Shown here piece by piece: positions 15,560-35,982 of a stretch of DNA of 64,000 nt. The number at the start of each line of letters is the position of its first letter. Positions within the stretch are counted from its first letter, which is position 1. Under the pieces are notes generated by a model, which was given only the letters and a program-made list of their open reading frames with translations, was not told the DNA's origin and made no database searches. The stretch is from Saccharopolyspora sp. NFXS83 (lineage in GTDB: Bacteria; Actinomycetota; Actinomycetes; Mycobacteriales; Pseudonocardiaceae): contig NZ_JAPFGB010000007.1 in assembly GCF_026241095.1 (NCBI RefSeq), positions 124,001 to 188,000 of the forward strand, written 5' to 3'. The position numbers and the translations under genes were made by a program.

Positions 15560-15573
15560 AGGCGGAGAACACC

Positions 15574-16881: not shown

Positions 16882-16902
16882 TCGAGTCCGGCCGATCCCC
16901 CC

Positions 16903-16943
16903 GCAGGTCCGCTCGTGGTCCCTTCGACCACGGGCGGACCTGC
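16903..16943. terminator. Strong hairpin terminator after the polyol permease
   Basis: GCAGGTCCGCTCGTGGTC pairs with GACCACGGGCGGACCTGC across a 5-base loop: an 18-bp stem with a single T-G mismatch, 22 bases after the permease stop. No poly-T follows, as is normal in GC-rich actinobacteria. It closes the polyol transcript and may also serve the opposite strand. Confidence 0.8.
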
Positions 16944-17408
16944 GTCGTTGCGCACCCGGCCGATCGGGCTGGTGCACCATCCTCACGAGATCACCCGGCC
17001 GCTTCCGCCGGTGGAGAGCTCCACGAGATCGCTCGGCGGCTCGCACCCGTGCGATGACGCTCCTGCGCACTGCGACCGGGACCTTCGCCGACGGGTCTCG
17101 CCCTTCCGGTGGTCATCGGGTGCTTCGAAGTCCGCCCTGCCGCATCCCGTTCTCCGCGAATCGAATCGCGAACGTCGACGACCGGTTGGTGGATCGGCGC
17201 ACACCTGCCCAGGGCGGATCGGATCGTCTTTCACGACGAAGGATCGCGAGTTCTCCCGGCACCGCCACATGAACCTGAACGCAAGATGTCCGGATGGCGG
17301 GATGCACGGGTCGAGCAGCGCCGTTCGGAGGGATCGGCATTTCGAAGTGAGGCGGTCACCCAGCGTCGGCGAAGCCGCGACGGCGCTTGTGCTCCGAGCG
17401 CCGCGGGC
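16944..17408. other. 465-base spacer between the catabolic region and the NRPS region
   Basis: No gene, repeat or RNA could be supported here. It separates the terminated polyol operon from the 3' end of the KAS III gene and may be the left edge of the biosynthetic island. Confidence 0.4.
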
Positions 17409-18383
17409 TCATAACCGCAGCAAGGCCACCGCCACCGACATTCCGCCTCCGAAGGTCGCCAGCAGCGCGATCGACCCTGGTTCGACGCCGGGGCTGCGGC
17501 GCGCCTGGTCCAAGGTGATCGCCGCCGAGGCGGCGCCGGTGTTGCCGTAGCGCTCGACGGTGGTGTGCAGCCGGGCCCCGGTGAGGCCGAGGTCGTCGAC
17601 CAAGGTCCGGATCAGATTCCCGTTGCCCTGATGGGTGATCACGTGGTCGACGTCGTCCCGGGTCAGGTCGAGGTCCGCGAGCAGTCGGTCCACCTCCGGC
17701 GGCACTCGGCTGCGGACGAAGTCCACGACCTCGCGGCCGTCCATGCGGAAGTGGTGCAGCCCCGCCTCGACCGTCTCGATGCTGGTCGGCACCCGGCTGC
17801 CGCCCGCCTCGACCCGCACGACCCCGGCCAGCTCGCCGTAGGACGACAGCCGGGCCCCGAGCACGCTGCGATCGCCGGACGCCGGGCCGATCACCGCCGC
17901 GCCCGCGCCGTCGCCGAGCAGCACCGCGGTCCGCCGATCGGTGGGGTCGATGACGCGGGAGTAGACCTCGGCGGCGATCACCAGGGCGGTGCCGCCGTCG
18001 GCGACGTAGCGTCGGGCGAGGTCGAGGGCGAAGACGAAGCCGCTGCAGACCGCGTTGAGGTCGAAGGCCGCCGCCCGCTCGGGCGCGCCGAGCCGATGGG
18101 CGACGACCGCGGCGGTCGGTGGCTGCGGCGAATCCGGCGTGGAGGTCGCGACGACCACGAGGGACAGGTCGGCGACATCGGTGCCCGCCGCTTCCAGCGC
18201 GCGGCGGGCCGCGGCGACGGCGAGATCGGAGGTGGCGTCGCCAGGTGCGGCGTAGCGCCGCTCGCGGATGCCGGTCTTGCGCCGGATCCACTCGTCGTCG
18301 ACGCCCGCGGGCGCCCCCACGGTTGCGTTGTCGACGACCTGCGCCGGCACGTGGGAACCCGTCCCCACCACTCCGACACCCAT
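17409..18383 (-). CDS. Beta-ketoacyl-ACP synthase III (FabH/KAS III-like)
   Basis: 324 residues with the thiolase-fold KAS III triad: C113 in NAVCSGFVFAL, H251 in ITHQGNGNLI and N281 in YGNTGAAS. The N-terminus GVGVVGTGSHVPAQVV and DEWIRRKTGIRERRYA are typical. KAS III enzymes condense acyl-CoA with malonyl-ACP, but cluster-borne members also act as acyltransferases. No ACP/KR/DH set is nearby, so a one-step acyl transfer or starter reaction for the adjacent NRPS product is plausible (inference). The ATG at 18383 has GGGAGG six bases upstream. It is transcribed away from the NRPS operon. Confidence 0.87.
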   Translation of the reverse strand: MGVGVVGTGSHVPAQVVDNATVGAPAGVDDEWIRRKTGIRERRYAAPGDATSDLAVAAARRALEAAGTDVADLSLVVVATSTPDSPQPPTAAVVAHRLGAPERAAAFDLNAVCSGFVFALDLARRYVADGGTALVIAAEVYSRVIDPTDRRTAVLLGDGAGAAVIGPASGDRSVLGARLSSYGELAGVVRVEAGGSRVPTSIETVEAGLHHFRMDGREVVDFVRSRVPPEVDRLLADLDLTRDDVDHVITHQGNGNLIRTLVDDLGLTGARLHTTVERYGNTGAASAAITLDQARRSPGVEPGSIALLATFGGGMSVAVALLRL

Positions 18384-18673
18384 TGATGACCTCCCGGACC
18401 GCACCCGGCCACATGCATCGGAATTCATTTCCGCAAACATTTCGAGAATCAATTTTCGCGCCCGCGAATGGGAGGATAACATGCCATTTTGGTATATTCC
18501 ACCCCGCCGACAGGTGGACTTCTCGGGGCTTTTATATTATGAGTCTTCCCTGGCCGTGCCACTCGTGAGGGGTTTCCCCTTTTTTCCTCGCTCGGCTGGA
18601 TGAGTCGACGCTGAAATAGCTTTCGGTGCCGTTTGTTTGACGCGGGATCCGCGACGCGAACGGGAGGTGTCTC
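18384..18673. promoter_or_regulatory. AT-rich divergent promoter region of the plus-strand NRPS locus
   Basis: 290 bases between the KAS III start and the first operon gene, with low GC compared with everything around it. It contains TATATT- and TTATATTATG-like stretches (about 18492-18540) suited to -10 elements. At 18567-18590 a GAGGGGTTTCCCC mini-hairpin runs straight into TTTTTT on the plus strand, which could act as an attenuator ahead of the operon. It also holds the small open frame described separately. Confidence 0.45.
18481..18603 (+). CDS. Possible 40-residue small protein or leader upstream of the NRPS operon
   Basis: ATG 18481 follows GGGAGG with a five-base spacer, a near-ideal ribosome binding site. 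The frame reads MPFWYIPPRRQVDFSGLLYY and continues for 20 residues to a TGA. The GAGGGG/CCCC/T6 structure lies inside its last third, so translation of the frame would run over that hairpin. It might be a leader peptide that couples translation to readthrough, or a fortuitous frame. I recognise no family. Confidence 0.25.
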   Translation: MPFWYIPPRRQVDFSGLLYYESSLAVPLVRGFPFFPRSAG

Positions 18674-19219
18674 GTGCAATTCGGAGGGGCGCTGGTGATC
18701 GTGGACGTCCAGGCGGAGTACATGGAATCGGCGTTCAACGGGGCCGCCACGGTCCGGGTGCTGACCGGCCTCCGCGATCGAGCGGTGCAGGCCGGGGTCC
18801 CGGTGGTGCAGATCCAGCACCGCGAACCGGGCTTCGGTCCGGGCCTGCCGGGATGGGAGCTCGCGATCCCACCGGCCCGCTCGGAGCGGGTCCTGGTCAA
18901 GGACGCACCGGACGCGTTCGTCGGCACCGGTCTCGCCGAGCTGCTGCGCGCGGAGAGCGCGGGCACGCTGGTGATCGGCGGGTTCAGCACCGAGTACTGC
19001 GTGGATTCCACGGTTCGCGCCGCGTTGAGCAACGCGTTCGACGTGATCGTTCCCGGCGACGGGCACACCAGCGGCACGACCGGCGGGGTGCTGCCCCCGG
19101 CCCAGGTCATCGCCCACCACAACCACGTGTTCCCCGGCCTGTCCGCGGCGTCCCGCTGCCGCGTGGCCCCGGCGGCGGAGATCGACCTCGGTGCCGTCCG
19201 GGCGGAGCACCTCCGATGA
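18674..19219 (+). CDS. Isochorismatase-family cysteine hydrolase
   Basis: 181 residues. The isochorismatase/nicotinamidase catalytic triad is visible as D11 (ALVIVDVQAEY), K76 (VLVKDAPDAF) and C109 (STEYCVDSTVRAA). Family members hydrolyse amides, vinyl ethers or carbamoyl groups. No isochorismate or dihydroxybenzoate genes are near, so a siderophore role is unlikely; amide hydrolysis of a precursor or intermediate fits better (inference). It is the first gene of the coupled operon. The GTG start has GGGAGG seven bases upstream. Its stop overlaps the next start (ATGA). Confidence 0.85.
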   Translation: MQFGGALVIVDVQAEYMESAFNGAATVRVLTGLRDRAVQAGVPVVQIQHREPGFGPGLPGWELAIPPARSERVLVKDAPDAFVGTGLAELLRAESAGTLVIGGFSTEYCVDSTVRAALSNAFDVIVPGDGHTSGTTGGVLPPAQVIAHHNHVFPGLSAASRCRVAPAAEIDLGAVRAEHLR

Positions 19220-20022
19220 GCCCGGCCTGGAACGTGCTGCGCGACGGGCCCGGCTCCGAAATCATCCTGGCCTGCGACTTCGCCACGGCGGGACGGCGCA
19301 TCGCGACGTTCGCCGAACTCGTCGCGCTGACCGGTGACGGGCCGACCGCATGGGAGAGCGCACCGGCGCCTCCAGCGGACTCGCTGGACGGCGACGCCCA
19401 AGTGCAGCGCTGGGCCGATGCCGTCCGCGCGAGCGGGCGTCCGGTCCGCGCGGTGCTGGGGTTCTGCACCGGGGCGGTGTACGCCGCCGCGCTGGCCGCG
19501 GAGATCTCCCGGTGGCAGCCGACCCGGTTGATCCTGCTCGACCCCGAACCCGGTGACGCGCGCCCGATGCTGGCGTTCCACCGCGAGGTCGTCTGCCGGT
19601 TCGCCGCGCTCGCACCCCCCGGCTCCGAGGACACCCTCGCCGCCGCCGAAGCCGCGGCGGCCGAGACCGCCCTGACGCCCTTGGCCGAGCGGCTCGTGGC
19701 GCTGTGCGCCCAGGTCGTGGAACCGGCGTGCGCGAACGCCGGGCTCGGTGCCGCCCGCACCGCCGAATACCTCGACGTCGCCGCGTCCTACCTGCACTGG
19801 CTGGCCGGCGCCGGTTCGTTGGATCCGCGACCGTCCTGGGCGACGGCCTCGGCGATCAACTCGTCGACGCCGGGCTCGGGCCTGCTCCGCGTCTCGCCCG
19901 CCGAGCGGGCCGGGCTCGTCGCCGACGCCGTCCACCTCGACGTCTCCCACGAGGACCTGATGCGCACGCCGGAGGCGGCGCGCATCGCCGCACGACTGGT
20001 GAGCGAGAAGGAGCCGACATGA
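19216..20022 (+). CDS. Cys-nucleophile alpha/beta hydrolase, probable aminoacyl transferase/thioesterase (copy 1)
   Basis: 268 residues with a nucleophile elbow VLGFCTGAVYAAALAAEI, where the usual Ser of GxSxG is C84. LILLDPEPGD follows as a possible Asp strand, and LDVSHEDLMRTPEAARIAARL near the end has the His context of NRPS thioesterases. Thus a full Cys-Asp-His set may exist. Stand-alone Cys-elbow enzymes such as CmaE and SyrC move aminoacyl groups between carrier domains; a type II thioesterase or a dienelactone-hydrolase-like enzyme are alternatives. The gene overlaps its neighbours on both sides, including a free-standing carrier protein, which supports the shuttle idea. A paralogue lies at 25.3 kb. 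Confidence 0.6.
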   Translation: MSPAWNVLRDGPGSEIILACDFATAGRRIATFAELVALTGDGPTAWESAPAPPADSLDGDAQVQRWADAVRASGRPVRAVLGFCTGAVYAAALAAEISRWQPTRLILLDPEPGDARPMLAFHREVVCRFAALAPPGSEDTLAAAEAAAAETALTPLAERLVALCAQVVEPACANAGLGAARTAEYLDVAASYLHWLAGAGSLDPRPSWATASAINSSTPGSGLLRVSPAERAGLVADAVHLDVSHEDLMRTPEAARIAARLVSEKEPT

Positions 20023-20291
20023 CCGAGGACCCCGTGTCCGTTCTGCTGGCGCTGTGGCGGGAGACGCTCGCCCACGACGACCTCGACGCCGACTCCAACT
20101 TCTTCGTCCACGGCGGGCATTCGCTGCTCGGGCTGGTCATGCTCGAGCGCGTCGAGGAGCTCACCGGCGCCGACCTGCCGCTGGCCGCGCTGTTCGAGTG
20201 CCCCACCCCGGCTCGGCTGGGTGAGCGGGTGCGGGCCGCGACGGCGGGTGAACCCGCCGACCCCGTCCCGACGCGGGACTCGCCGTGCTGA
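20019..20291 (+). CDS. Free-standing peptidyl carrier protein
   Basis: 90 residues of a phosphopantetheine-binding carrier: LLALWRETLAHDDLDADSNFF leads to the attachment Ser in VHGGHSLLGLVML, then LPLAALFECPTPARLGERV. It must be loaded by a phosphopantetheinyl transferase encoded elsewhere. Having a discrete carrier beside an A-PCP protein and Cys-elbow hydrolases is typical of pathways that modify an amino acid off the assembly line and then move it back. ATG overlaps the previous stop; its end overlaps the SHMT-like gene by seven bases. Confidence 0.9.
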   Translation: MTEDPVSVLLALWRETLAHDDLDADSNFFVHGGHSLLGLVMLERVEELTGADLPLAALFECPTPARLGERVRAATAGEPADPVPTRDSPC

Positions 20292-21613
20292 GCGCGGGCA
20301 CCACCCGGTTGCGCGTCGAGGACCCGGAACTGGCCGGGCTGCTCGACGACGAACTGACCCGCCAGGACGAGGCGCTGTCGCTGGTCGCCTCGGCCGGTGT
20401 CGCGGACGCCTCGGTGCTGGCCGCCGGGGCGGCGGCGCTGTCGGACGTGACCGCCGAGGGCTATCCCGGTTCCCGCTTCCACCCGGGGGCCGAGCGGTTC
20501 GACGCGGTCGAGCGGCTGGCCGCCGCGCGGGCCCGCGCGGCGTTCGGGGCGAGCCACGCCAACGTCCAGCCGCACTCGTGCTCCGCGGCCAACCTCGCCG
20601 TGCTGACCGCGCTGCTGCCGGTCGGCGGCGTCCTGTTGGGACTGCGCCTCGACGCGGGCGGTCATCTCACCCACGGGGCCCCGGCGTCGGTCACTGGGCG
20701 CTGGTTCCGGCCGGTGTCCTACGGGGTCGGGGACGACGGGCTCATCGACTACGCCGCGGTCGCCCGGGTGGCGCGCGAGCACCGCCCCGGCGTGATCGTG
20801 GCCGGGGCCAGCGCACATCCGCGCCGGCTCGACCACGTGGGGTTCCGGGAGATCGCCGACGAGGTCGGTGCCTACCTGCTCGCGGACGTCTCGCACGTCG
20901 CCGGGTTGGTGGCGGCCGGGCTGCACCCGAATCCGATCGACGTCGCGCACGTCACCACGATGAGCACCTACAAGCAGCTCGACGGCCCGCGGGGCGGCCT
21001 GATCCTGCTCGGCCGCGAGCACGATCACCCCGGCCCCGACGGCACTCCGCTGGCCCGGCTGATCGACCGAGCGGTGTTCCCCGGCACGCAGGGCACCCCG
21101 GCTCCGGCGGCGATCGCGGCGAAAGCCCGTGCTCTCGACCGGGTGCGCGAGCCGGAGTTCGAGCGCACCGCGCGGCTCGTGCTCGACGACGCGGCGGCGC
21201 TCGCCACGGCCCTGCGGGGGCACGGGTACCGGTTGCTCACCGGCGGCACCGATACCCACATGGTCGTGCTCGACCTGCGCCCCGGCGGGCCGTCCGGGCT
21301 GGTGGCCGAACGCGCGCTGGAGGAGTGCGGCATCCTCGCCAACCGCAATTCCGTGCCCGGCGACACCCGACCGCCCACGGTGACGAGCGGCCTGCGCCTC
21401 GGCACCAACGTGCTCGCCCGCCGCGGCATGGGACCGGCGGAGATGGCGCAGTGCGCCCGGCTGGTCGACCGCGTGCTGCGGTGCGTGGCCCCGGTCGATG
21501 CGACGCGGTACCGGCTCGACCCGGCGGTGCGCGCCGAAGTGCGCGCCGAGGTGCGGGAGTTGACCAGGTCCTTCCCCCTGCCCGGTCGGCCCGTGCCGGA
21601 GGGGGTCCGGTGA
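20285..21613 (+). CDS. Serine hydroxymethyltransferase-like PLP enzyme with altered active site
   Basis: 442 residues of the SHMT fold: AEGYPGSRF, NVQPHSCSAANLAVL, HLTHGAPAS, ADVSHVAGLVAAGLHPNP, the PLP-Lys block TYKQLDGPRGGLI, FPGTQGTP and TSGLRLGTNV (substrate-carboxylate Arg). Departures from housekeeping SHMT are notable: the catalytic Glu of SEN is Ala (LVASAGVAD), the His before the PLP Lys is Tyr (TYK for THK), and the second Gly of QGGP is Thr. These suggest a specialised aldol or transaldol reaction on an amino acid, as for cluster-borne alpha-methylserine or beta-hydroxy amino acid synthases, rather than folate metabolism. GTG start inside the carrier gene; TGATG overlap with the NRPS. 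Confidence 0.8.
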   Translation: MLSAGTTRLRVEDPELAGLLDDELTRQDEALSLVASAGVADASVLAAGAAALSDVTAEGYPGSRFHPGAERFDAVERLAAARARAAFGASHANVQPHSCSAANLAVLTALLPVGGVLLGLRLDAGGHLTHGAPASVTGRWFRPVSYGVGDDGLIDYAAVARVAREHRPGVIVAGASAHPRRLDHVGFREIADEVGAYLLADVSHVAGLVAAGLHPNPIDVAHVTTMSTYKQLDGPRGGLILLGREHDHPGPDGTPLARLIDRAVFPGTQGTPAPAAIAAKARALDRVREPEFERTARLVLDDAAALATALRGHGYRLLTGGTDTHMVVLDLRPGGPSGLVAERALEECGILANRNSVPGDTRPPTVTSGLRLGTNVLARRGMGPAEMAQCARLVDRVLRCVAPVDATRYRLDPAVRAEVRAEVRELTRSFPLPGRPVPEGVR

Positions 21614-24075
21614 TGGAGCGGGATCCCGGCCGCACCGCGGCCTGCGCCGGTCCGGTTCCCGGTGGATCAGCCGTCCAGGAGCCCGGTGCCGACGCGGGGG
21701 CGACCGCCGTCCGGTTCCCGGCCGACCGGCGTCGCGACCCGGACGCCCCGCGCGTCGACGGCCACGAACCGGCCCGTCCGCTGCCCGCCGAAGCGGTCCG
21801 GGAGCTGGCCCGAGCCACAGGTGCCGGTACCGGCGCCGTGCTCCTCGCCGCGACCGCGGCCCTGCTGGCGCGCTGCACCGGCTACGGCCACCGGGCGTTC
21901 ACCCTGCACCGCCCGGGGAACCCGTCGCGGGTGGTCGCCGTCGAGGTCGGTGCGGAACTGCCGTTCACGGCCCTGGTCGCCCGCGTCTCCGCCGAGCAGG
22001 AGCCGGTGGTCGCGGCACCGCCCGGCACGGGCGTGGCGGTGCTGGCGCCCGACGCGCAGTGGCCCGGCACCACCGACGAACTGTGCTTGCGCCTGATCGA
22101 CGGCGCGTGCCCGCAGGCCGCGGTGGACTACGACGCCGCCGTGTTCGCCGCCCCGACCGCGCGCCGACTCGTGGAACAGCTCGCGACCCTGCTCGACGGC
22201 GCGGCTGCCGCCCCCGGCACCCCGGTGTCCGCGCTGCCGGTGTCGTCGGCCGACGAGCTGCACGCGATGCTCGTGGCCTGGAACGACACCCGTACCGCCC
22301 TGCCGCTGCCCGGCCCGACGCTGCACGAAGCCGTGGCCGCCAGGGCACGCCAGGACCCGGAGGCCACCGTGGCCGTCGACGGTGATCGGCGGGTCACCCG
22401 CGGCGAGCTCGACGCCGCGGCCGACCGCGCGGCCTCGAGACTGCGCGCCGCAGGCGTGCGCCGGGGCGTGCGCGTGGGCGTGTGCCTGCACCGCTCGCTG
22501 GAGCTGCTGGTCGCGGTGCTCGGGGTGCTGCGCGCCGGGGGCGCCTACGTGCCGCTCGACCCGGCGCACCCGCAGGCCAGGCTGCGCTCGGCGCTGGAAG
22601 GCGCGGGCTGTGCCGCCGTCGTCACCGGGGACGGCACGGTTGGGCTTCCCGGTTCGGCCGCGGTCCCCGAGGTCCGCCTCGACCCCGGCACCGAGCACGA
22701 TCCGGCCGGCGCCGGCGGAACCGAACCGGAAGACCCCTGCTACGTCATCCACACGTCCGGCACCACCGGCAGCCCCAAGGGGATCGAGCTGCGCCACGCG
22801 GGCGTGCTCAACAACCTCGTCGACCTCGGCACCCGCTTCGGCATCGGGCCGGACGACTCCGTGCTGGCGCTGTCCGCGCCGGGCTTCGACATGTCGGTGT
22901 TCGAGTTCATCGGCCTGCCGGTGGCCGGTGGCGCGGTGGTGCTGCCCGAACCCGAGCGTGCCGGGGATCCCGCGCACTGGGTCGAACTCGTGCTGCGGCA
23001 CCGGATCACGGTGTGGAACTCCGCACCGGCGCTGCTCGAACGGCTCGTGGAGCGGGCCGAACAGACCGGCACCCGCCTGGACTCGCTGCGGCTGGCGCTG
23101 CTCGGCGGGGACTGGGTCGGCACCGACCTGCCCGCCCGGCTGCACGCCCTCGCACCGGGGCTGCGGTTCGTCGCGCTCGGCGGCGCGACCGAGGCGTCGA
23201 TCCACTCCACGGTGCACGAAGTTCCCGACTCCGGACCGGATCCCGGCCGGGCGAGCATCCCCTACGGCCGTCCGATGGCGAACCAGCGCGCCTACCTGCT
23301 CGACGAGCGGCGCCGCCCGGTTCCCGCCGGGGTGCCGGGAGAACTGCACCTGGCCGGGGCGGGTCTGGCCACCGGCTACGTCGGCGACGACGAGCGCACC
23401 GCCGATCGCTTCACCGACTGGTCCTTCGGCCCGGTCCGGCACGAGCGGCTCTACCGCACCGGCGACCGGGCGCGGCTGCACCCCGACGGAGAGCTGGAGC
23501 TGCTCGGCCGCATCGACGCCCAGCTCAAGATCGGCGGGGTGCGGATCGAACCCGCCGAGGTGGAGTCCGTCCTGCTCACCCATCCCGCCGTCGCCGCCTG
23601 CGCGGTGGCCGCGCCCGCCGGGAGGCTGACCGCGCACGTGGTGGCCCGCTCGGGCGGACCGGCTCCGGCGAGCGACGAGCTGCGGGCGCACGCCGCTCGG
23701 AGCCTGCCCGCGGCGTTCCTGCCCACCGCCTGGGCGTGGCCGACCGCGCTGCCGCTGAGCCCGAACGGCAAGGTCGACCGGCGGGCGCTGGCGGCGCCCG
23801 CACCCGACCCCACCGGCACCGGCGATCCGCCCCGCGACGAGTGGGAACGCCGGGTCGCGCAGGTGTGGCAGCAGGTGCTGGGCACGGGACCGCTCGGCCG
23901 CGACAGCGAATTCCACGCCTCCGGCGGCGATTCGCTCGCCGCGATGATCGTCGTGCAACGACTCGACCCCGACCTGCCCACCACCGAGCTCTACTCCGAC
24001 CCCACCGTCCGCGGGTTGGCGCGGCGGCTTCGCGACCGCTCGACCCCGAACGCTCCCGGAGGGCCAGACGCATGA
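21613..24075 (+). CDS. NRPS: truncated C domain, adenylation domain, PCP
   Basis: 820 residues. Residues 1 to about 230 look like the C-terminal remains of a condensation domain (no HHxxxDG motif). The adenylation domain follows, with YVIHTSGTTGSPKG near 376, then a PCP with its Ser in SGGDSLAAM near 771. By eye the specificity code is D-M-F-N-L-G-L-I-H-K. The FDMSVFE, WNSAP, GGDW and LGGATEASI blocks place it with the Cys-type group (D-L-Y-N-L-S-L-I-W-K), but three pocket positions differ, so the substrate is open (Cys, Ser or a modified relative). It probably acts as the loading A-PCP of the locus. The TGATG and ATGA overlaps couple it to its neighbours. Confidence 0.85.
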   Translation: MERDPGRTAACAGPVPGGSAVQEPGADAGATAVRFPADRRRDPDAPRVDGHEPARPLPAEAVRELARATGAGTGAVLLAATAALLARCTGYGHRAFTLHRPGNPSRVVAVEVGAELPFTALVARVSAEQEPVVAAPPGTGVAVLAPDAQWPGTTDELCLRLIDGACPQAAVDYDAAVFAAPTARRLVEQLATLLDGAAAAPGTPVSALPVSSADELHAMLVAWNDTRTALPLPGPTLHEAVAARARQDPEATVAVDGDRRVTRGELDAAADRAASRLRAAGVRRGVRVGVCLHRSLELLVAVLGVLRAGGAYVPLDPAHPQARLRSALEGAGCAAVVTGDGTVGLPGSAAVPEVRLDPGTEHDPAGAGGTEPEDPCYVIHTSGTTGSPKGIELRHAGVLNNLVDLGTRFGIGPDDSVLALSAPGFDMSVFEFIGLPVAGGAVVLPEPERAGDPAHWVELVLRHRITVWNSAPALLERLVERAEQTGTRLDSLRLALLGGDWVGTDLPARLHALAPGLRFVALGGATEASIHSTVHEVPDSGPDPGRASIPYGRPMANQRAYLLDERRRPVPAGVPGELHLAGAGLATGYVGDDERTADRFTDWSFGPVRHERLYRTGDRARLHPDGELELLGRIDAQLKIGGVRIEPAEVESVLLTHPAVAACAVAAPAGRLTAHVVARSGGPAPASDELRAHAARSLPAAFLPTAWAWPTALPLSPNGKVDRRALAAPAPDPTGTGDPPRDEWERRVAQVWQQVLGTGPLGRDSEFHASGGDSLAAMIVVQRLDPDLPTTELYSDPTVRGLARRLRDRSTPNAPGGPDA

Positions 24076-25313
24076 CCGACCCCATCGGCACTCGTCCCGA
24101 CCGCACCGATCCCACCGCCGAGGAGCGCATCCTCGCCCAGTGGACCGGCATCTACGACGCCGTCTACCGGCATGCCGGGGACCGCCCGGACCGGGACTTC
24201 GCGGGATTCCGCAGCGGCCTCAGCGGTGAGAACTACTCCGACGCCGAAGTGATCGAGTGGATCGACGGCACGGTCGCGCAGGTGCTGGCGCTGCGTCCGC
24301 GCAGCGTCCTCGACGTCGGCGCCGGGACCGGCTTGATCGCCCGCGGACTGCTGCCGCACGTGGACCGGTACGTGGGCACCGACATCTCGCCGCGCGGCGT
24401 GGACCGGCTCCGGTCCGGGCTCGGCGACAGGGCGGGCGCCGAGTTCGCGGTGCGCGACGCCGACGGGATCGGCGATCTCGGCTCGTTCGACGCCGTCGTG
24501 GTCAACTCGGTGATCCAGCACTTCCCCAGCGCCCGGTACCTGTGGCGGGCGCTGGCCCGGATGGCCGAGGTGAGCTCCCCGGCGGGTGCGGTGTTCATCG
24601 GGGACGTGCCCGGCCTGCACCTGCGCGACCTGCACCACCTGTGCGTGGTCGCGAACCGGCTGCGGGCCGCGTCGAAGGTCCCGAGCGCCGGGAACGTGCA
24701 CGAGCAGCTGTCCGGTTCGGCCGCGCAGGACCGGGAGCTGGTCGTGCACCCCGATTTCTTCACCGCGTTCGCCGCCGAGCACGGCCTGTCGGCCGACATC
24801 CGGCTCAAGCCGGGCCGCCATCCGATCGAGATGAACCTGTTCCGCTACGACGTGCGGCTGCACCACCGCGCCGACGGCCTGCTCGACCCGGCCGAGGTCG
24901 AGCGCACGCCGTGGGACGGCGCCCCGGCCGGGGCGCTGGCCGAGCGTGCCGCCGCGACCTCGGCACCGATCGCGATCACCGGCATCCCGCGACCCGAGCT
25001 GACTCCGATCGCGGCGGCCCTGCACGGGCTGCGCGGGCTCGCCCCGGAAGCGCCCGTCGAACCCGCGTCGCTGCCGACCGGATCCGGCGCCGACGCACCC
25101 GGCACCGGGGTGCACCCGGCCGACGTGGTCGACGCCGCCGCCGCGCTGGGACGGGCCTGCTTCGCGACGCCGTCGGCGGCCGACCCGACGGCCTACGACG
25201 CGGTGTTCGCCGGGACCGCGCAAGCCCGTGGCCTGGCCGTGCCGCCCTCCCCTGCCGCGGACCGGCCGCTGACCACCGGGCCGTCGCCGCTGACACCGGC
25301 GGGTGGCCGGTGA
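24072..25313 (+). CDS. Stand-alone NRPS-type SAM methyltransferase
   Basis: 413 residues. A class I methyltransferase core has motif I SVLDVGAGTGLIARGLL and VVVNSVIQHFPSARYLW. It then continues with HPDFFTAFA, MNLFRYDVRL and AITGIPRPELTPIAAALHG, the accessory segments found in methyltransferase domains embedded in NRPS adenylation domains. It closely resembles the inserted domain of the synthetase at 26.2-31.3 kb (shared VVNSV.Q..P.A..L). The likely substrate is a carrier-bound aminoacyl group, acting in trans on the A-PCP or free PCP. The long Ala/Pro-rich C-terminus is less conserved. Start overlaps the upstream stop (ATGA). Confidence 0.82.
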   Translation: MTDPIGTRPDRTDPTAEERILAQWTGIYDAVYRHAGDRPDRDFAGFRSGLSGENYSDAEVIEWIDGTVAQVLALRPRSVLDVGAGTGLIARGLLPHVDRYVGTDISPRGVDRLRSGLGDRAGAEFAVRDADGIGDLGSFDAVVVNSVIQHFPSARYLWRALARMAEVSSPAGAVFIGDVPGLHLRDLHHLCVVANRLRAASKVPSAGNVHEQLSGSAAQDRELVVHPDFFTAFAAEHGLSADIRLKPGRHPIEMNLFRYDVRLHHRADGLLDPAEVERTPWDGAPAGALAERAAATSAPIAITGIPRPELTPIAAALHGLRGLAPEAPVEPASLPTGSGADAPGTGVHPADVVDAAAALGRACFATPSAADPTAYDAVFAGTAQARGLAVPPSPAADRPLTTGPSPLTPAGGR

Positions 25314-26122
25314 CGCCGCGCGTGCACGCGGTCCTGCGGGCGGGCGGTGACGGGCTCGTCGTCGCGGCGGACTTCGCGATGGCGGGGCGTCCCGCGGCGG
25401 ACTTCACCGAACTCGTGGCGGGTCTGAGCACCGCGCACACCGTGTGGGAGACCCTGCCTCCCCCCGGCGGACCGACCGCCGGGACGCGCGGGCAGGACCA
25501 CGTCGAGACCTGGGTCGCCGAGATCCGGGCCGCCGGGCGCCCGGTGCGCGCGGTGCTCGGGTTCTGCAGCGGCAGCGTCTACGCCGGTGCGATGCACCGC
25601 GAGATCTCCCGCTTCCAGGACCCGCCGGAGCTGGTGCTGTTCGACCCCGACCGGGCCGACCGCGCGATGGTCATCGACTACTTCGCCGAACTGGCCACGA
25701 CCCGGTTGTCCGCGCTGCTCACCGCGGACAAGGTGGAGGAGGCGGTCCGGGCCGGGCGCGCCGTCGACGCCGCCGCGGCCGGGCCGTTGGAGCTGGCCGC
25801 CGGGCTCGGCGCGCTGTGCGCGGAGATCCTGCCGCCCGCCTGCCTGCGAGCCGGCCTCACCGGGCGGCGCAGCACCGAGCTCGCCGACGTCCTCGCCGCG
25901 TACCTGCACTGGCTCGCCGCCGCCGCCGAGTTCGACGTGCGGCCCCTGTGGTCGTCGGCGACCGCGCTGAACTCGGCCACCGACGGATACGGCCTCGACG
26001 CGTTCCCCGCCGCCGAGCGACCCGGGCTGGTCGGGCGGGTCGTGCAGTGCGAGGCCCCGTACCAGGACCTGCTGCGCGCGCCGGGAACGGCGCGCCTGGT
26101 CGACGACCTGCTACCGCGCTGA
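25310..26122 (+). CDS. Cys-nucleophile alpha/beta hydrolase paralogue (copy 2), His position changed
   Basis: 270 residues, collinear with the gene at 19.2 kb over the whole length (AADFAMAGRPAADFTELVA, RPVRAVLGFCSGSVYAG, LVLFDPDRAD, AAYLHWLAAAAEFDVRPLW). C86 is the elbow Cys. Where copy 1 has VSHEDLMRTPEAARI, this copy has APYQDLLRAPGTARL, so the presumed catalytic His is Tyr. It may use a different base, bind without turnover, or act only in acyl transfer that does not need water activation. Two paralogues in one operon would fit one enzyme to unload and one to reload a carrier (inference). GTGA overlap with the methyltransferase gene; 62-base gap follows. Confidence 0.6.
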   Translation: MTPRVHAVLRAGGDGLVVAADFAMAGRPAADFTELVAGLSTAHTVWETLPPPGGPTAGTRGQDHVETWVAEIRAAGRPVRAVLGFCSGSVYAGAMHREISRFQDPPELVLFDPDRADRAMVIDYFAELATTRLSALLTADKVEEAVRAGRAVDAAAAGPLELAAGLGALCAEILPPACLRAGLTGRRSTELADVLAAYLHWLAAAAEFDVRPLWSSATALNSATDGYGLDAFPAAERPGLVGRVVQCEAPYQDLLRAPGTARLVDDLLPR

Positions 26123-26184
26123 CCGACGCCGCCGACCGACCCGCGTCCCCCACATCGGGCCGCCCGCCAGCCGAAGGAGCCGCC

Positions 26185-29100
26185 ATGGACGTCACGTCGT
26201 CGCCGCGGGACACCGTTCGCCAGCAGACCGCGCCGGACTCGCTGCCCCTGACCGCCGGGCAGCACGAGGTGTGGCTGCTGCACCGGCTCGACGGCTCCGG
26301 TGCCCGCTGCCGCACCGGGGCGAGCACCCGCATCGACGGCCCGCTCGACGTCGCGCTGCTCGAACGGAGCCTGCACCGGGTCGTCGACGAGACCGAGGCG
26401 CTGCGGATCCGCCTCGTCGAGGACGGCGACTCGGTCGCCCAGACCGTCGGCGCCCGCCCCGGGGCGGTGCTGGAGGTGGTGGACCTCGGCGCGGACGCCA
26501 CCACCGCCGACGCCCACCGGGGCATCGAGGACCGGCTCGCGGTGCCGATGGATCCCACCCGCGGTGAGGTCTTCTTCGCCGTGCTGTTCCGCCTCGGGCC
26601 GGACCACCACCACCTCTACTTGGACTTCCACCACGTGGCCTCCGACGCCACCGGGATGACGCTGGTGCTGCGGCGGCTCGCGGAGATCTACACCGACCTC
26701 GCCGACGGCGGGGCGGTGCGCGCCGGTCGAGGCGGGTCGCTGGCCGAGCTCGTCGCCGCCGACGCCGCGTACCGCACTTCGGAGCAGCACGGTCAGGACC
26801 GCCGGTACTGGCTCGACCGGCTCGCCGTGCTGCCGTCGCTGCCCGAACCCGACCCCGCCGTCGGGGTCTCCTACTCCCGGCACGTGCTCGGCTCCGACGT
26901 CATCGGGAGGCTGCGGGGCGTCACCTCGACGCTGCGGGTGCGCCGCACCGCGGTGCTGCTCGCGGCGGTGGGGCTGCTCGTGCACCGCCTCACCGGCCGC
27001 GACGTCGTCGGGGTGGGGCTGGCGGTGGCCGCCCGCACTCCCGAGCAGGCCGAGACGCCGGGGATGGTGTCGAACATCGTTCCGGTCGCGCTCGACCTCG
27101 ACGGTGTCCACGACGTCGCCGAGCTCGTCGCGCTGGCCCAGTCCGAACTGGTCGCCGCACTGGAGCACCAGCGCTACCGCGGCGAGCAGGTGGTGCGCGA
27201 CGGCGGTGGGCGCGGGCGGCTGTCCGGCCGGGTCGACGCCCAGCTCAACGTGCTGCCTCCCGTCGTCGACGTCGCGTTCGGGCCGTGCCTGGCCCGCGAG
27301 GACCGCGGCGTCATGAGCGCGGTCGACGTCCCCTCGTTCTGGGGCCGGATGGTGTCGTCGGACGAGATGCTGCTGGAGACGCTCACCGGGCCGGGCACCG
27401 ACCGCACCCGCACCAGCGCCGACCTCGGCACGCTGCTCTCCCGGGTGCTCGACGTCGTCGGCGACCCGGCGGCCTCGACCCGGCCGCTGGCGGAGATCGG
27501 CCTGACCACTCCGCAGGAGCACGCCCGGTTCACCGCCCCGCCCGCGCCGCGGCCGGTGGGTCCGGCCCGGACGCTGACCGCCGCGTTCGACGAGGTCGCG
27601 GCAGCTCACCCGGACGCGATCGCCGTGGTGTGCGACGGCGTCGCGACCTCCTACCGCGAACTCGACCGCGCCGCGCACGCCCTCGCGGATCGGCTGGCCC
27701 GGCTCGGCGCCGGTCCGGGGCGGCGGGTCGCGGTCGTCGTCCCCCGATCGGCGGGCATGGTGGCCGCGGCGCTGGCCGTGGTCCGCTGCGGTGCGGCGTA
27801 CCTGCCCGTCGAGCCGGGCGGACCGCCGTCGCGGTGGGAGTTCGTCTGCGCCGACGCCGCGCCCGTGGCCGTGGTGACGACCGATCCCGGCCACGTCGGC
27901 CCGGATCTCCCGGCGGTGGTGATCGATCCGGTGGGCCACCCGGTCGACCCGGCCCCGTCCGGCCCCGGCGTCATGCTCGCACCACCGGGCGTGGACGACC
28001 CGGTGTACGTCATCTACACCTCGGGATCCACCGGCGCCCCGAAGGGCGTCGTCACCACCCACCGCAACGTCCTCGACCTGCTCGACGCCGCGAGCGGCTG
28101 GTTCCCGGTCGGGCCGGGCACGGTGTGGGCGTCGACCCATTCGTTCGCGTTCGACTTCGCCGTCTGGGAAGTCTGGGGCGCGCTGCTGACCGGCGGGCAG
28201 GTCGTGCTGGCCACCGACACCGAGCGGCGCGACCCGGCGCTGCTGCTCGCCCTGCTCGCGAAGGAGGGCGTGCAGGTGCTCAGCCAGACCCCGACCGCGC
28301 TGGCCGCGCTGCTGGACGCCGCGGCACACGGTCCGGAAGCGGCGGAGCTCGCCTGGGTGCTGGTCGGCGGCGAGGCCCTCGACCGGGATCTGGTGTCGCG
28401 CTGGTTCGCCCGGCCGCCCGGCCCCGGCGCACGGCTGTGGAACGTCTACGGCATCACCGAGACCACCGTGTTCGTCAGCGGCCAGGAGATCACCCGCACC
28501 GAGGCCGACGGCACCGGGCCGCTGCCGATCGGGTCGGTGCTGCCGCACCTGCACGGCCACGTCCTCGACGGCGAGGGCCGTCCCGTGCCGCCGGGCGTGG
28601 CCGGTGAGCTGCACGTGGCCGGGACCGGCGTCGCCGCGGGCTACCTGAACCGCCCGGAGCTGACCGACGCCCGGTTCGTCGCCGACCCGTTCGCCGCCGA
28701 CGGCAGCCGGATGTACCGCAGCGGCGACGTGGTGCGCCGGCGCGCCACCGGCGAGCTGGAGCACCTCGGCCGCGACGACGACCAGGTGCAGCTGCGCGGC
28801 CACCGCGTCGAGCTCGGCGAGATCGAGGCGGCGCTGATGGCCCACCCCCGGGTGTCGCGGGCGGCGGTGGCGGTGCACGGCGATCGCGGCGCCGACGCCC
28901 GCCTGATCGGCTACGTCGTCGAGCACCGCACGGCCGCCGACCCGGACGCGCACACCGGCGGCTGGCAGCGCATGTTCGACGGGCTCTACGACAGTTCCGC
29001 GCCCGGGCACGCCGAGGCCTTCCACGGCTGGTCCGACAGCGTTGACCGCAGTGCGATCCCGGTGCGGGAGATGCGGAGCTGGCGCGACGGGATCGTCGCC

Positions 29101-31281
29101 CGGATCCGCGCGCTCCGACCGCGCCACCTGCTCGAAGTCGGCGTCGGCGAGGGTTTGCTGCTGACCGAGCTGGCCCCGGACTGCGACGGCTACTGGGCCA
29201 CCGACATCTCCGCCGCCGCGCTGGACCTGGTGGCCCGGCGTTGCGCCGACCGGCCGGAGATCACCGACAAGCTGGTGCTGCGCTGCCAGCCCGCGCACGA
29301 CGTCTCGGGCCTGCCGGCGGGACGGTTCGACACGATCGTCGTCAACTCCGTGGTGCAGTACCTGCCCGACGCCGAGCACCTCGCTCAGGTGCTGCACGGG
29401 CTGACCGCGCTGCTCGCTCCCGGTGGCCGGATCGTGGTCGGTGACGTGCGCCGGTGGGGGCTGGCCCCGTTGTTCCACGACGCGCTCGCGGTTCGCCGGG
29501 CCGCCGACACCGACGAGCCCACCCCGTCGGACGCGGAACTGGCGGCGGTGGCCGACCGCGCCCGCGCCGCCGAGTCGGAGCTGCTGGTCGAACCGGCCTG
29601 GTTCGAGCGGTTCGTGTCGGCGAGCCCGACGCTGACCCGCGCCGAAAGCGCGCTGCAGCACAGCGGCACCACCGAGATGGGCCGCTACCGCTACGACGTG
29701 GTGCTCTCCACCGACGACGAGCCCCGCGACCCGGATCCGGTGCTGCTGCGGTGGGGTGCCGACGTCGACGGGCCCGCCTCCTTCCGGGCGGCGCTGCACG
29801 ATTCCGGCGCACCGTCGGTGGTGCTGCGCGGCGTTCCCAACGGGCGCTTGGCCGCCGATCTCGCCCGCACCGCCGGGGTGCGGGCGGCTCGCGCTCGGAC
29901 CGATCCCGTCCCGCCGGACCGACGTGACCCGGTTGAGCCCGTCGAGCTGCTCACCGCGGCGCAAGCGTGCGGATACCAGGGGCGGGTGGACTTCTCGGCG
30001 GACGACGCGCACGCGGTCGACGTGCTCGTGCACCGCGAGGGGAACCCGCCGCCCGCCTCGGTGCTCGCCGGGACGAGCGCGACGGCGAACACCCCGGTCG
30101 CCCCGCACTCGGCCGAGCTGGGCGCCGGGCTCCGCGAACAGCTGCGCGGCCGGCTGCCCGGCTACATGGTTCCGGCGCAGATCGTCACCGTGCCCGAGCT
30201 GCCCCGCTCCGAGAACGGCAAGCTCGACCGGGATCGGCTTCCGTCGCCGGAACCGGTGGCACCGGCTCGGCGTCCCGCGACCGGCGGGGTCGAAGGCACC
30301 TTGTGCCGCTTGTTCGCCGAAGTGCTCGGGCGTTCCGAAGTCGGGCCGGAGCAGAGCTTCTTCGACCTGGGCGGGCACTCCCTGATGGCCGCGACGCTGG
30401 TGGGGCGCATCCGCGACGAACTCGGCGTCGGACTCGGCGTCCGGTCCCTGTTCGGCGCGCCCACCGCCGCCGGGGTGGCCCGGCTGGTCACCGGGGTGCA
30501 AGGCCGCGCCGAGGACGGGGCGACGCGGCGGCTGCTGACGCTGCGCCCCGGCGACGGCGGGCGCCCGCTGTTCTGCCTGCATCCCGGCGGTGGGCTGTGC
30601 TGGTCCTACGCGCACCTGCTGCCGTACCTCGACCCCGCGATCCCGGTGCACGGCATCCAGTCCCCGCGCCTCGGCGACCCGGACGCCCCACCGCTGACCA
30701 CGCCGGACCTGGTGCGCGACTACACGAGGCTGATCCGCGAGACCCAGCCGTCGGGCCCGTACCGCCTGCTCGGCTACTCGCTCGGCGGGCTGATCGCGTT
30801 CGCCGTGGCCTGCGCGCTGCAGGAGGACGGCGACGAGGTCGAGAGCCTGGTCCTGGTCGATTCGTACCCGCCGTCGCACGCCGCGGGCTACGAGCGCCCG
30901 GTCGACGAGTTCACCGACGACGAGGTCGCGGAGTTCCAGCGCAACGCGATCGGCAACCTCACCACCCTCGGCGCCGCACCGCTGACCGACGTCCGGCTCG
31001 ACGACGAGGTCGTCGCGGGCCTGCGCCGCTGCATGGAGGACGCCGCCCCGATCGCGGCCACTTTCGGCGACCCGGTGTTCCGCGGCACCGTCGAGCACCT
31101 GCAGGCCGACCGCCCGCAGTACGGCCCGGTGCCGGACGGGCGTGCGCTGTGGCAGCCGCTGGTCGACGGAGAGGTCCGCGGCCACCTGTTCGACGTGGGG
31201 CACAACGAGATGATGCGCCCGCACTCGATGCTCACCGTCGGCCCGCGGATCGGCGAGATCCTGGAACGGGGGCGGCCGTGA
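26185..31281 (+). CDS. NRPS: C-A(MT)-PCP-TE
   Basis: 1698 residues. The condensation domain spans about 20-440 (DFHHVASDATG near 148). The adenylation domain begins near 460, with YVIYTSGSTGAPKG near 607. It is interrupted after RGHRVELGEIEAAL (870) by a methyltransferase of about 360 residues (LLEVGVGEGLLL near 981), and resumes at ENGKLDRDRL (1342). The PCP Ser is in GGHSLMA (1396). The thioesterase has GYSLGG (1530) and a late GHNEMMRP. The code reads D-F-W-S-L-G-V-V-F-K, nearest to the Thr group. An A domain split at this site normally N-methylates its amino acid. A product of about two residues is expected. AAGGAG precedes the ATG. Confidence 0.9.
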   Translation: MDVTSSPRDTVRQQTAPDSLPLTAGQHEVWLLHRLDGSGARCRTGASTRIDGPLDVALLERSLHRVVDETEALRIRLVEDGDSVAQTVGARPGAVLEVVDLGADATTADAHRGIEDRLAVPMDPTRGEVFFAVLFRLGPDHHHLYLDFHHVASDATGMTLVLRRLAEIYTDLADGGAVRAGRGGSLAELVAADAAYRTSEQHGQDRRYWLDRLAVLPSLPEPDPAVGVSYSRHVLGSDVIGRLRGVTSTLRVRRTAVLLAAVGLLVHRLTGRDVVGVGLAVAARTPEQAETPGMVSNIVPVALDLDGVHDVAELVALAQSELVAALEHQRYRGEQVVRDGGGRGRLSGRVDAQLNVLPPVVDVAFGPCLAREDRGVMSAVDVPSFWGRMVSSDEMLLETLTGPGTDRTRTSADLGTLLSRVLDVVGDPAASTRPLAEIGLTTPQEHARFTAPPAPRPVGPARTLTAAFDEVAAAHPDAIAVVCDGVATSYRELDRAAHALADRLARLGAGPGRRVAVVVPRSAGMVAAALAVVRCGAAYLPVEPGGPPSRWEFVCADAAPVAVVTTDPGHVGPDLPAVVIDPVGHPVDPAPSGPGVMLAPPGVDDPVYVIYTSGSTGAPKGVVTTHRNVLDLLDAASGWFPVGPGTVWASTHSFAFDFAVWEVWGALLTGGQVVLATDTERRDPALLLALLAKEGVQVLSQTPTALAALLDAAAHGPEAAELAWVLVGGEALDRDLVSRWFARPPGPGARLWNVYGITETTVFVSGQEITRTEADGTGPLPIGSVLPHLHGHVLDGEGRPVPPGVAGELHVAGTGVAAGYLNRPELTDARFVADPFAADGSRMYRSGDVVRRRATGELEHLGRDDDQVQLRGHRVELGEIEAALMAHPRVSRAAVAVHGDRGADARLIGYVVEHRTAADPDAHTGGWQRMFDGLYDSSAPGHAEAFHGWSDSVDRSAIPVREMRSWRDGIVARIRALRPRHLLEVGVGEGLLLTELAPDCDGYWATDISAAALDLVARRCADRPEITDKLVLRCQPAHDVSGLPAGRFDTIVVNSVVQYLPDAEHLAQVLHGLTALLAPGGRIVVGDVRRWGLAPLFHDALAVRRAADTDEPTPSDAELAAVADRARAAESELLVEPAWFERFVSASPTLTRAESALQHSGTTEMGRYRYDVVLSTDDEPRDPDPVLLRWGADVDGPASFRAALHDSGAPSVVLRGVPNGRLAADLARTAGVRAARARTDPVPPDRRDPVEPVELLTAAQACGYQGRVDFSADDAHAVDVLVHREGNPPPASVLAGTSATANTPVAPHSAELGAGLREQLRGRLPGYMVPAQIVTVPELPRSENGKLDRDRLPSPEPVAPARRPATGGVEGTLCRLFAEVLGRSEVGPEQSFFDLGGHSLMAATLVGRIRDELGVGLGVRSLFGAPTAAGVARLVTGVQGRAEDGATRRLLTLRPGDGGRPLFCLHPGGGLCWSYAHLLPYLDPAIPVHGIQSPRLGDPDAPPLTTPDLVRDYTRLIRETQPSGPYRLLGYSLGGLIAFAVACALQEDGDEVESLVLVDSYPPSHAAGYERPVDEFTDDEVAEFQRNAIGNLTTLGAAPLTDVRLDDEVVAGLRRCMEDAAPIAATFGDPVFRGTVEHLQADRPQYGPVPDGRALWQPLVDGEVRGHLFDVGHNEMMRPHSMLTVGPRIGEILERGRP

Positions 31282-32360
31282 ACTTCCCGGGAGTGCGCTA
31301 CGACGAGACGTTCGACTGCTGGGTGGTGACCGACCCCGAACTGGTCCGGCGCGCGCTGCGCGACCCCGCGCTGTCGGCGCAGACCTTGGAGGCGGCCACC
31401 GTCGCGTTCTTGCCGCCCGAGGTGCGCGCGGAGTGCGCGCCGCTGCTCGACACCTTGCGCCGCTGGTTCGTCACCCTCGACGGCGAGCCGCACCGGGAGC
31501 GGCGCCAGGCCGTGGCGCACCTGTTCGCGACCCGGCGCATCCGCGAGCTCGACGACGTCCTCACCGGGATCGCCGACGCCGCGGTCGGGCGGTGCGCCGC
31601 CGCCGGGGGCGGGGACGTGGTGCCCGCGATCGCCGACGTCGTCGCCGCGCGGGGGATCGCGGCAATGCTCGATCTCGACGGCGTGGCGCACGAACGCCTC
31701 AACGACTGGGCTCGGGCGGTGTCGGAGTTCCTGGCGACGTCCTACCGGCCGGACCGGGCTCGCGCCGCGCAGACCGCGCTCGACGAGATGGCGGCCTCGG
31801 TCCTCGCCGTGCCGGGCGCCATGCCCACCGTCGCGCCGGGCGACCCGGCCGAGCGCTTGGCGACGGCGTCGATGCTGCTGTTCGGCGGCATGGAGACGAC
31901 GTCCGGGCTGGTGGGGTTCGCGCTGTGGTACCTCGTCGCCAACGGCCTGTCCGAGCGGGTCGCCGCCGACCCGTCGGGGGCCGAGGCCGACGCCGTCGTG
32001 GAGCGGGCGCTGGAGCTGTTCGCCCCGGTCGGGCACGTCGCGCGCCTCGCGCTGCGACCGGTTCGGCTCGGCGACGCCGAGATCCCGGCCGGGGCGCTGG
32101 TGATGGTCGCGCTGCACGGCGAGGACGTCCTCGCCGCGCCCGGCATGCCCACCCGGTGCCCGGCGCACGGCCCGGCCCGCCGCGATCACCTGGCGTTCGG
32201 CGGCGGACCGCACTTCTGCATCGGCGCCCCGCTGGCGCGGGCGATCGCCGGTTCGACGGTCACCGCGTTCGCCCGCGCACTGCCGGAGGTGGCGGTGCGC
32301 GAACTGCGCTGGCGGGACAACCCGACCTTCCGAGGCCCGGCGGCGCTCGTGCTGCGGTGA
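31278..32360 (+). CDS. Atypical short cytochrome P450
   Basis: 360 residues, short for a bacterial P450 (about 400). The heme-Cys loop HLAFGGGPHFCIGAPLAR and I-helix LLFGGMETTSG are intact. The K-helix ExxR is not: the aligned stretch reads VVERALELFAP, with Arg and Glu exchanged relative to the usual ELLR. The meander (normally ANRDP..F..P..F...R) is replaced by HGEDVLAAPGMPTRCPAHGP. A few actinobacterial P450s lack ExxR, so it may still bind heme. It probably oxidises an intermediate or product of the preceding NRPS. GTGA overlap shows it is the last gene of the operon. Confidence 0.83.
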   Translation: MNFPGVRYDETFDCWVVTDPELVRRALRDPALSAQTLEAATVAFLPPEVRAECAPLLDTLRRWFVTLDGEPHRERRQAVAHLFATRRIRELDDVLTGIADAAVGRCAAAGGGDVVPAIADVVAARGIAAMLDLDGVAHERLNDWARAVSEFLATSYRPDRARAAQTALDEMAASVLAVPGAMPTVAPGDPAERLATASMLLFGGMETTSGLVGFALWYLVANGLSERVAADPSGAEADAVVERALELFAPVGHVARLALRPVRLGDAEIPAGALVMVALHGEDVLAAPGMPTRCPAHGPARRDHLAFGGGPHFCIGAPLARAIAGSTVTAFARALPEVAVRELRWRDNPTFRGPAALVLR

Positions 32361-32429
32361 GCCGGCGGCGGGCGGCTCCCGAGGAATTCCGCACCGCCTG
32401 CGGAAGTCCGGTTCGACGACAGCGCGGGT

Positions 32430-34300: not shown

Positions 34301-34324
34301 ATGTCCAACTCCCGGATCTACTAG
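34301..34324 (+). CDS. Seven-residue leader peptide MSNSRIY controlling the ABC-F gene
   Basis: ATG TCC AAC TCC CGG ATC TAC TAG. Its last codons (Arg-Ile-Tyr-stop) are themselves one arm of the hairpin that hides the ABC-F ribosome binding site. A ribosome stalled by a peptidyl-transferase inhibitor on these codons would open that hairpin. Short leaders with this geometry regulate erm, cat and several ABC-F genes (for example vmlR and lmrC). The frame is too short to judge by composition; support is the geometry with the downstream hairpin and the -10 element right before it. Confidence 0.65.
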   Translation: MSNSRIY

Positions 34325-34376: not shown

Positions 34377-34383
34377 TACTTTC

Positions 34384-35982
<1,599 letters not shown>

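Follow-up and report, generated by a model that had tools for sequence, protein, structure and literature searches.

Two Dieckmann-cyclase-family proteins encoded in a short nonribosomal peptide synthetase operon of Saccharopolyspora sp. NFXS83 as candidate carrier-to-carrier transferases

Organization and distribution of the operon

In this work, we present a computational analysis of a nonribosomal peptide synthetase (NRPS) operon of Saccharopolyspora sp. NFXS83, with emphasis on two of its products, the Cys-elbow proteins named here H1 and H2. The operon occupies positions 18674–32360 of the window, i.e. the whole analysed stretch of 64,000 nucleotides (positions 124,001–188,000 of contig NZ_JAPFGB010000007.1). 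According to gene calls and start letters it consists of nine genes, all on the plus strand. Adjacent genes overlap by 1–7 bases, with the sole exception of a 62-base gap (26123–26184) located directly before the NRPS gene. The original prediction, made from the letters alone, had described this stop-start coupling with its one gap, as well as a parts list in which every named gene was found again on the plus strand; the list omitted the first gene of the operon and a divergent gene preceding it. Throughout the text G000 denotes the own genome, G001–G005 genomes of the same genus and L0xx fetched loci.

The first gene (18674–19219) codes for an isochorismatase-fold cysteine hydrolase (PF00857, E 2.7e-23; PDB 5ha8, E 9e-19), in which the usual triad (D, K and C) is seemingly present, as read by eye. 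It is followed by the genes of H1 (19216–20022), of a free peptidyl carrier protein (PCP) with the motif GGHSL (20019–20291; PF00550 and carrier-domain ranking) and of a pyridoxal phosphate (PLP) enzyme, a serine hydroxymethyltransferase (SHMT) of apparent PbzB/FmoH type (20285–21613; PF00464, motif and tree). The next product (21613–24075; Pfam and motif reading), called A1-PCP1, is composed of an N-terminal part, an adenylation (A) domain with the pocket DMFNLGLIH and a carrier with GGDSL; its first ~235 residues contain no Pfam condensation (C) domain and no HHxxxD motif. A stand-alone methyltransferase (MT; 24072–25313, Pfam), 31% identical over 249 alignment columns to the embedded MT of the NRPS, precedes the H2 gene (25310–26122). 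The NRPS itself (26185–31281) has the architecture C-A2(MT)-PCP2-TE, ending in a thioesterase (TE), with HHVASDA as the C motif and GYSLGG in TE, and its A2 pocket, DFWSLGVVF, gives no clear substrate call. The last gene (31278–32360) encodes a cytochrome P450 (PF00067) with the heme-Cys loop FGGGPHFCIG and a short N-terminus; its K-helix reads R-x-x-E, versus E-x-x-R in three aligned relatives, an apparent charge swap found in G001 as well. A scan of the window proteins against Pfam backed every operon gene assignment except H1 and H2. Divergent from the operon, on the minus strand at 17409–18482, lies a gene of beta-ketoacyl-acyl carrier protein synthase III (KAS III, FabH family; PF08545/PF08541), which scored 302.5 bits against NF006829 (cut-off 249) and in which the Cys-His-Asn triad was located by eye in VCSGF, HQGN and GNTG.

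G001 contains KAS III together with the nine operon genes in conserved order, with protein identity of 84–96% (84% for the isochorismatase-fold hydrolase, 94% for KAS III), thus the gene set is not a chance reading. One block, 16953–32371 (15.4 kb), aligns to G001 at 91.8% DNA identity, and this ten-gene block is present in two of six same-genus genomes. The left flank (12935–16952), with a sugar-binding-domain gene, an alcohol dehydrogenase and a major facilitator superfamily (MFS) gene, also matches G001, and most of it was found in all five same-genus genomes searched, including G002–G005, where the search for H1 gave no match. To the right of the block the next G001 match occurs ~8.4 kb further on. 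In the four genomes devoid of H1, the best match of KAS III reaches 33–42% identity. Since KAS III is present in both genomes with the operon and has no close copy in any of the four without it, KAS III and the operon were acquired together. Recent duplication of the housekeeping FabH to give a resistance copy is less likely, because KAS III is only 33–38% identical to the other KAS III matches of its own genome.

At E ≤ 1e-25, a match to H was detected in 5 of 394 genomes of a class sample and in 2 of 396 of a phylum sample, the own genome being counted in both, and identity above 66% in any H search was reached only in G000 and G001. The search for related loci with the H1/H2 alignment yielded four, with the operon in none of them. 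The operon was originally regarded as unassigned and it stays so: no named pathway was matched to it in the open-licence PMC literature, among the matches listed, and the same literature gave no paper joining nonribosomal peptide, Dieckmann cyclase and serine hydroxymethyltransferase.

H1 and H2 fall into a separate clade with an altered active site

H1 and H2 are 44% identical. For neither was a Pfam family found at E ≤ 0.001, Thioesterase included, hence they are not Pfam Thioesterase proteins. In the PDB search H1 matched NcmC (6e6t, E 2e-36) and one further entry at chance level, and the H1/H2 profile returned NcmC (E 6e-51) followed only by a weak match to FluC thioesterase. The fold comparison, carried out on H2 only, gave a model with pLDDT 89 which superimposed on NcmC with a TM score of 0.91, the next class, thioesterases, reaching ~0.6. 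Judged by these comparisons, both proteins belong to the NcmC/TrdC Dieckmann-cyclase family.

A tree of 23 rows was built for the family, in which near-identical rows were merged and proteins shorter than 245 aa, as well as window copies returned as loci, were dropped. H1 and H2 fall into a clade of nine members with 100/100 support (H1 pair, H2 pair, G085, L039, L032/L040, L041 and L042). NcmC lies outside this clade, as do all relatives whose fetched stretch has a ketosynthase (KS) or acyltransferase (AT) motif of a type I polyketide synthase (PKS). No such motif was present within 13–21 kb around the G085, L039, L032/L040, L041 and L042 genes, but the KS motif used does not catch the stand-alone ketosynthases which in L041 and L042 lie 5–10 kb from the H gene. 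Another limit of this test is a KS-containing frame of 6634 residues located ~23–27 kb from the H gene of G125, a row whose HMGS label rests on gene order and reading by eye.

The catalytic residues of the family are known from BpdE, in which, as reported (PMC10956176), none of the C89A, D116A, Y204F and H245N variants restored production. The NcmC spacing (Cys+27 to Asp, Asp+88 to Tyr) equals that of BpdE, and BpdE Tyr204 maps on the tyrosine of SYL; the distance from Tyr to His is 50 in NcmC and 41 in BpdE, therefore the loop before His is shorter in the latter. At the Tyr204 column, mapped by spacing, all nine clade members carry Trp (Trp195 in H1), while the 19 other rows show Tyr in 16, Trp in two and a gap in one. 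H1 keeps the Cys-Asp-His triad (Cys84-Asp109-His245). The H2 type reads Cys-Asp-Tyr, with no His, in all three sequences (H2, its G001 copy and the G085 copy), H2 itself having Cys86-Asp112-Tyr251 when counted from the start codon GTG at 25310; truncated rows that lack the His region are marked '-' in our residue table. Read from the alignment, the Dieckmann residue set is thus broken once in H1 and twice in H2, with Cys and Asp kept.

Several clade members come from different surroundings. The G085 gene (L031, 9224–10045, minus strand) is H2-like, with 66% identity and Cys-Asp-Tyr, and a short MT-like stretch adjoins it. Transposase and TetR genes lie in its vicinity, no other operon gene was found within 19.5 kb, and the gene is perhaps what remains of an operon of this kind. 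Leinamycin-type and related clusters L041, L042, L032 and L039 carry an H-clade gene, accompanied in L041 and L042 by a DUF6039 gene. These two loci share leinamycin-type genes (LnmK family, HMGS, ECH and PLP lyase-TE), as compared with the gene content given in PMC9570651, and the leinamycin passage of that review names no role for the H-clade gene.

The free PCP resembles carriers located beside Dieckmann-family genes

The free PCP was searched against nine genomes with a PKS-linked H gene, leaving out those where H stands beside A/AT motifs only. The first ranking covered 335 matches at E ≤ 1 in five genomes including G001, about 150 of them listed, and the second one, for another five genomes, 145 matches at E ≤ 1e-5. 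Among the matches listed, the best non-orthologous carrier was located 1.3–3.0 kb from the H gene in eight of the nine genomes. In the first ranking this applied to four of four, at 2.8–2.9 kb, and the bit scores among the matches listed were 72.1 in G116 (next 46.7), 71.4 in G072 (47.9), 62.4 in G000 (41.5) and 54.9 in G063 (47.0). In the second ranking four of five genomes had it at 1.3–3.0 kb, with 65.8 bits in G478 (next 48.7), 64.7 in G034 (51.4), 54.4 in G403 (49.0) and 52.1 in G070 (49.1). In the own genome PCP1 (28.2 bits) and PCP2 (29.8 bits) scored far below the best carriers. As these carriers are probably relatives of one another, their likeness speaks for one shared origin and not for independent events. 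Adjoining carriers were also seen within the clade: in L042 a free PCP, 50–52% identical to that of the operon, comes immediately after the H gene, and in L032 an acyl carrier protein (ACP) gene overlaps the H gene, whereas in L039 and L041 no carrier adjoins it. As far as sequence likeness allows, the probable ancestor of the free PCP is a carrier on which enzymes of the Dieckmann-cyclase family act.

The own genome encodes a third H-family gene (L034, contig C12, ~79.4 kb), which has PKS and NRPS motifs next to it and a carrier of its own close by, and likely marks a tetramate-type cluster.

SHMT and A1 point to an alpha-branched serine

In PbzB-type SHMTs, as described in PMC10098953, Thr and His replace Tyr55 and Tyr65 of GlyA (TAEG..RYH versus YAEG..RYY), and PbzB acts on free amino acids, free Gly and Ser being used. 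The operon SHMT reads TAEGYPGSRFH, with Thr and His at the GlyA-Tyr positions and Phe for the middle Tyr, whereas the housekeeping SHMTs, in their correctly read copies, show YAEG..RYY. It also keeps MSTYK at the PLP lysine and GLRLG, the Arg of which we take to be the one binding the substrate carboxylate. In a tree of 15 rows it groups with the SHMTs of L043, L044 and L045 and with PDB 7qcw (100/99), and nine housekeeping SHMTs fall apart from this group, with 100/99 on both sides of the split. Entry 7qcw is probably PbzB, though PMC10098953 prints 7QWZ. The L044 enzyme breaks the motif, having RYY and not RYH.

Downstream of the SHMT gene, L043, L044 and L045 each encode an NRPS, the A pockets being DMYNMGLIH, DMYNLGMIH and DMYNLGMIH, respectively. 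The A1 pocket has seven of nine positions in common with each of them, and is nearer to these A domains than to the contacts of FmoA3. The L044 and L045 NRPSs also begin with A-PCP, their A domains starting at residues 213 and 167 by Pfam, with the best-scoring C domain located after the A domain. The combination of a TAEG-motif SHMT with an adjoining NRPS recurs in Streptomyces and Pseudonocardia plasmid records (L043–L045), and the L044 and L045 stretches include a SidA/IucD/PvdA monooxygenase gene.

From its sequence the SHMT is expected to make an alpha-branched serine, for which the methyl (FmoH) and hydroxymethyl (PbzB) forms read alike. Because the enzyme is of PbzB type and the A1 pocket is like those of A domains beside such SHMTs, the branched residue is probably made as a free amino acid, before loading, and not on the carrier.

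Proposed pathway

We consider it quite possible, though short of probable, that the operon specifies a short NRPS pathway acting on alpha-branched serine, in which H1 and H2 are carrier-to-carrier (amino)acyl transferases. We infer its catalytic steps from the gene set, protein families, residues, clades, carrier kinship and co-gain described above. The SHMT would produce alpha-methylserine or 2-hydroxymethylserine as a free amino acid, as its motif and clade suggest, and A1 would activate the branched serine and load PCP1, to which the pocket resemblance and the repeated gene order point. Through their Cys, H1 and H2 would then pass the acyl group among PCP1, the free PCP and the C-A2(MT)-PCP2-TE protein; H1, with its full Cys-Asp-His, may dock on the free PCP, and H2, devoid of His, may be the more specialised partner. 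The stand-alone MT, and perhaps the P450, would modify the residue while it is bound to the free PCP. The C domain would couple it with an amino acid bearing an N-methyl group from the embedded MT, and TE would release a dipeptide-sized product; since the line has this terminal TE, Dieckmann release would be unnecessary. KAS III and the isochorismatase-like hydrolase are regarded as cluster members with no step assigned.

The original prediction assumed that an amino acid is loaded, moved to the free carrier, changed there and returned. Shuttling is retained on other grounds: it is still the best explanation because a residue essential for Dieckmann chemistry is lost and the free PCP is kin to carriers beside Dieckmann-family genes. 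A change on the carrier is unlikely for the PLP step, given an SHMT of PbzB type. An alpha-substituted amino acid and a short line with an embedded MT are still to be expected.

As to the origin of such a system, in the reading favoured here a cyclase-carrier pair would have split off from a tetramate-type line and been reused for transfer. A further and more doubtful idea is that thioester-to-thioester transferases arose from the Dieckmann fold as a clade of their own. In this operon a Cys-Asp-His and Cys-Asp-Tyr pair, the latter devoid of the general-base His, would relay branched serine from A-PCP via the free PCP to the NRPS, on a carrier inherited from a tetramate-type module.

A number of observations speak against this proposal. 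Only two full copies of the operon were found, both in close species. We know of no member of the nine-protein clade with known activity, and transfer by a Dieckmann-cyclase-family protein is not reported in the open-licence PMC literature, among the matches listed. Trp at the Tyr204 column is not exclusive to the clade, as two PKS-linked relatives, G070 and G088, have it too, and the triad His is also gone from two distant relatives (Ser in G048, Arg in G282). In G088 the best carrier (58.6 bits) lies ~27 kb from the H gene, the near one (52.5 bits, 1.9 kb) being second. The free PCP could be loaded in trans by an A domain, and the co-gain of KAS III would suit a pathway with a beta-ketoacyl unit and thus with Dieckmann chemistry. 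When A1 is compared with the PDB over its entire sequence, linear gramicidin synthase subunit A ranks first and FmoA3 further down. FmoA3 activates alpha-methylserine through the side-chain contacts A/N/S (PMC11253843), where A1 reads M/N/G by our own position mapping, so that only N is common; for these two reasons the substrate of A1 is not fixed.

Alternative explanations

True Dieckmann chemistry, in which KAS III provides a beta-ketoacyl group, H1 cyclises the substrate on the free PCP to a tetramate-like ring and H2 is a degenerate helper, is in our opinion unlikely. It would account for the retained Cys-Asp-His of H1, for NcmC being its only clear PDB relative, for the carrier kinship and for the co-gained KAS III, and the Trp of the two PKS-linked relatives means that this residue may not exclude cyclisation. 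However, Pfam finds no PKS in the operon, and no KS/AT motif was present in L028, which holds most of the G001 operon copy. There is no complete C domain placed so as to put a beta-ketoacyl group on the A1 residue, the line ends in its own TE, and both H1 and H2 have Trp at the position where, in BpdE, Y204F abolished production (PMC10956176). We find it similarly improbable that H1 and H2 are editing thioesterases which clear misloaded carriers, the free PCP being loaded in trans by A1. Editing type II thioesterases are common in NRPS clusters, and a hydrolase fold with a Cys elbow would suit such a role, but H1 and H2 lack a Pfam Thioesterase match and are kin to cyclases. They are, moreover, two paralogues from different subclades, one of them without the catalytic His, and a carrier gene adjoins the H gene in two of four other clade loci checked (PCP in L042 and ACP in L032, not in L039 or L041).

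The 7-base overlap of the free PCP and SHMT genes might suggest that the SHMT acts on aminoacyl-PCP. This we consider very improbable, as GLRLG with its presumed substrate-carboxylate Arg is retained, no free PCP gene in L044 and L045 separates the SHMT gene from the next one, which encodes an NRPS starting with A-PCP, and PbzB used free Gly and Ser (PMC10098953).

Comparison with known systems

With the trans-acting Dieckmann cyclases TrdC, NcmC and BpdE, H1 and H2 share the fold, sequence family, Cys elbow and Asp, and H1 also the His. They differ by Trp in place of the essential Tyr, by the missing His of H2 and by their separate 100/100 clade, and the operon differs by the absence of a polyketide synthase delivering a beta-ketoacyl-aminoacyl chain.

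The aminoacyltransferases CmaE and SyrC have a Cys-elbow hydrolase fold and stand beside A-T and free T proteins. The operon is like these systems in the Cys nucleophile and in the separate A-T and free T proteins, but its PLP enzyme is of a type acting on free amino acids, it has two paralogues and kinship is not demonstrated. The kinship of H1 and H2 to CmaE and SyrC proposed originally found no support, since the PDB search gave only NcmC as a clear relative, the CmaE and SyrC sequences themselves lying outside the comparison. Two alpha/beta hydrolases of a Streptomyces halogenase/ACP/A-T cassette, taken for comparison, also gave no significant match.

The LgnA-type shuttling type II thioesterase (PMC8748450) carries acyl groups from the T domain of one NRPS protein to that of another, as is proposed here for H1 and H2, which differ from it in having no Pfam family. 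The PbzB, AsmD, FmoH and XvbB SHMTs (benzobactin, ashimide, JBIR-34/35) have the TAEG..RxH motif and an NRPS in the cluster in common with the operon, where the SHMT is instead coupled to a free PCP, H1/H2, a trans MT, KAS III and a P450. In the leinamycin-type locus L042 (LnmK family, HMGS, PLP lyase-TE and free PCP) an H1 relative (51%) is followed by the free PCP, as in the operon, but the context is polyketide and neither SHMT nor NRPS of the operon was matched there.

Should the proposal be true, it would mean a new use of the tetramate-cyclase fold: an offloading cyclase with its carrier, cut from a polyketide-peptide line, would have been reused as a carrier-to-carrier transfer unit. 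The replacements of Tyr by Trp and of His by Tyr could then help to tell both uses apart in genomes, Trp alone not being exclusive. A concrete prediction is that A1 loads alpha-methylserine or 2-hydroxymethylserine, and it extends to A domains of this type elsewhere among actinobacteria.

Genes to the right of the cluster

A giant NRPS pair on the minus strand (40746–62653) starts 8.4 kb downstream of the operon, with the pockets DVWHFSLID, DLYNLSLIW (twice), DILQLGVIW and DILQLGVVW; the first protein aligns partly to PKS regions of other loci. It was not counted as part of the same cluster: within the G001 stretches compared (~60 kb) the operon block has no such NRPS alongside, therefore the pair is treated as separate. 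Between the operon and the pair, region 36641–39838 encodes an AurF-family protein, a methyltransferase and an MFS gene. The gene at 34306–35982 encodes a protein with ABC ATPase domains in two stretches (ABC-F-like), and stretches of 67–69% DNA identity to this gene occur elsewhere in five same-genus genomes.

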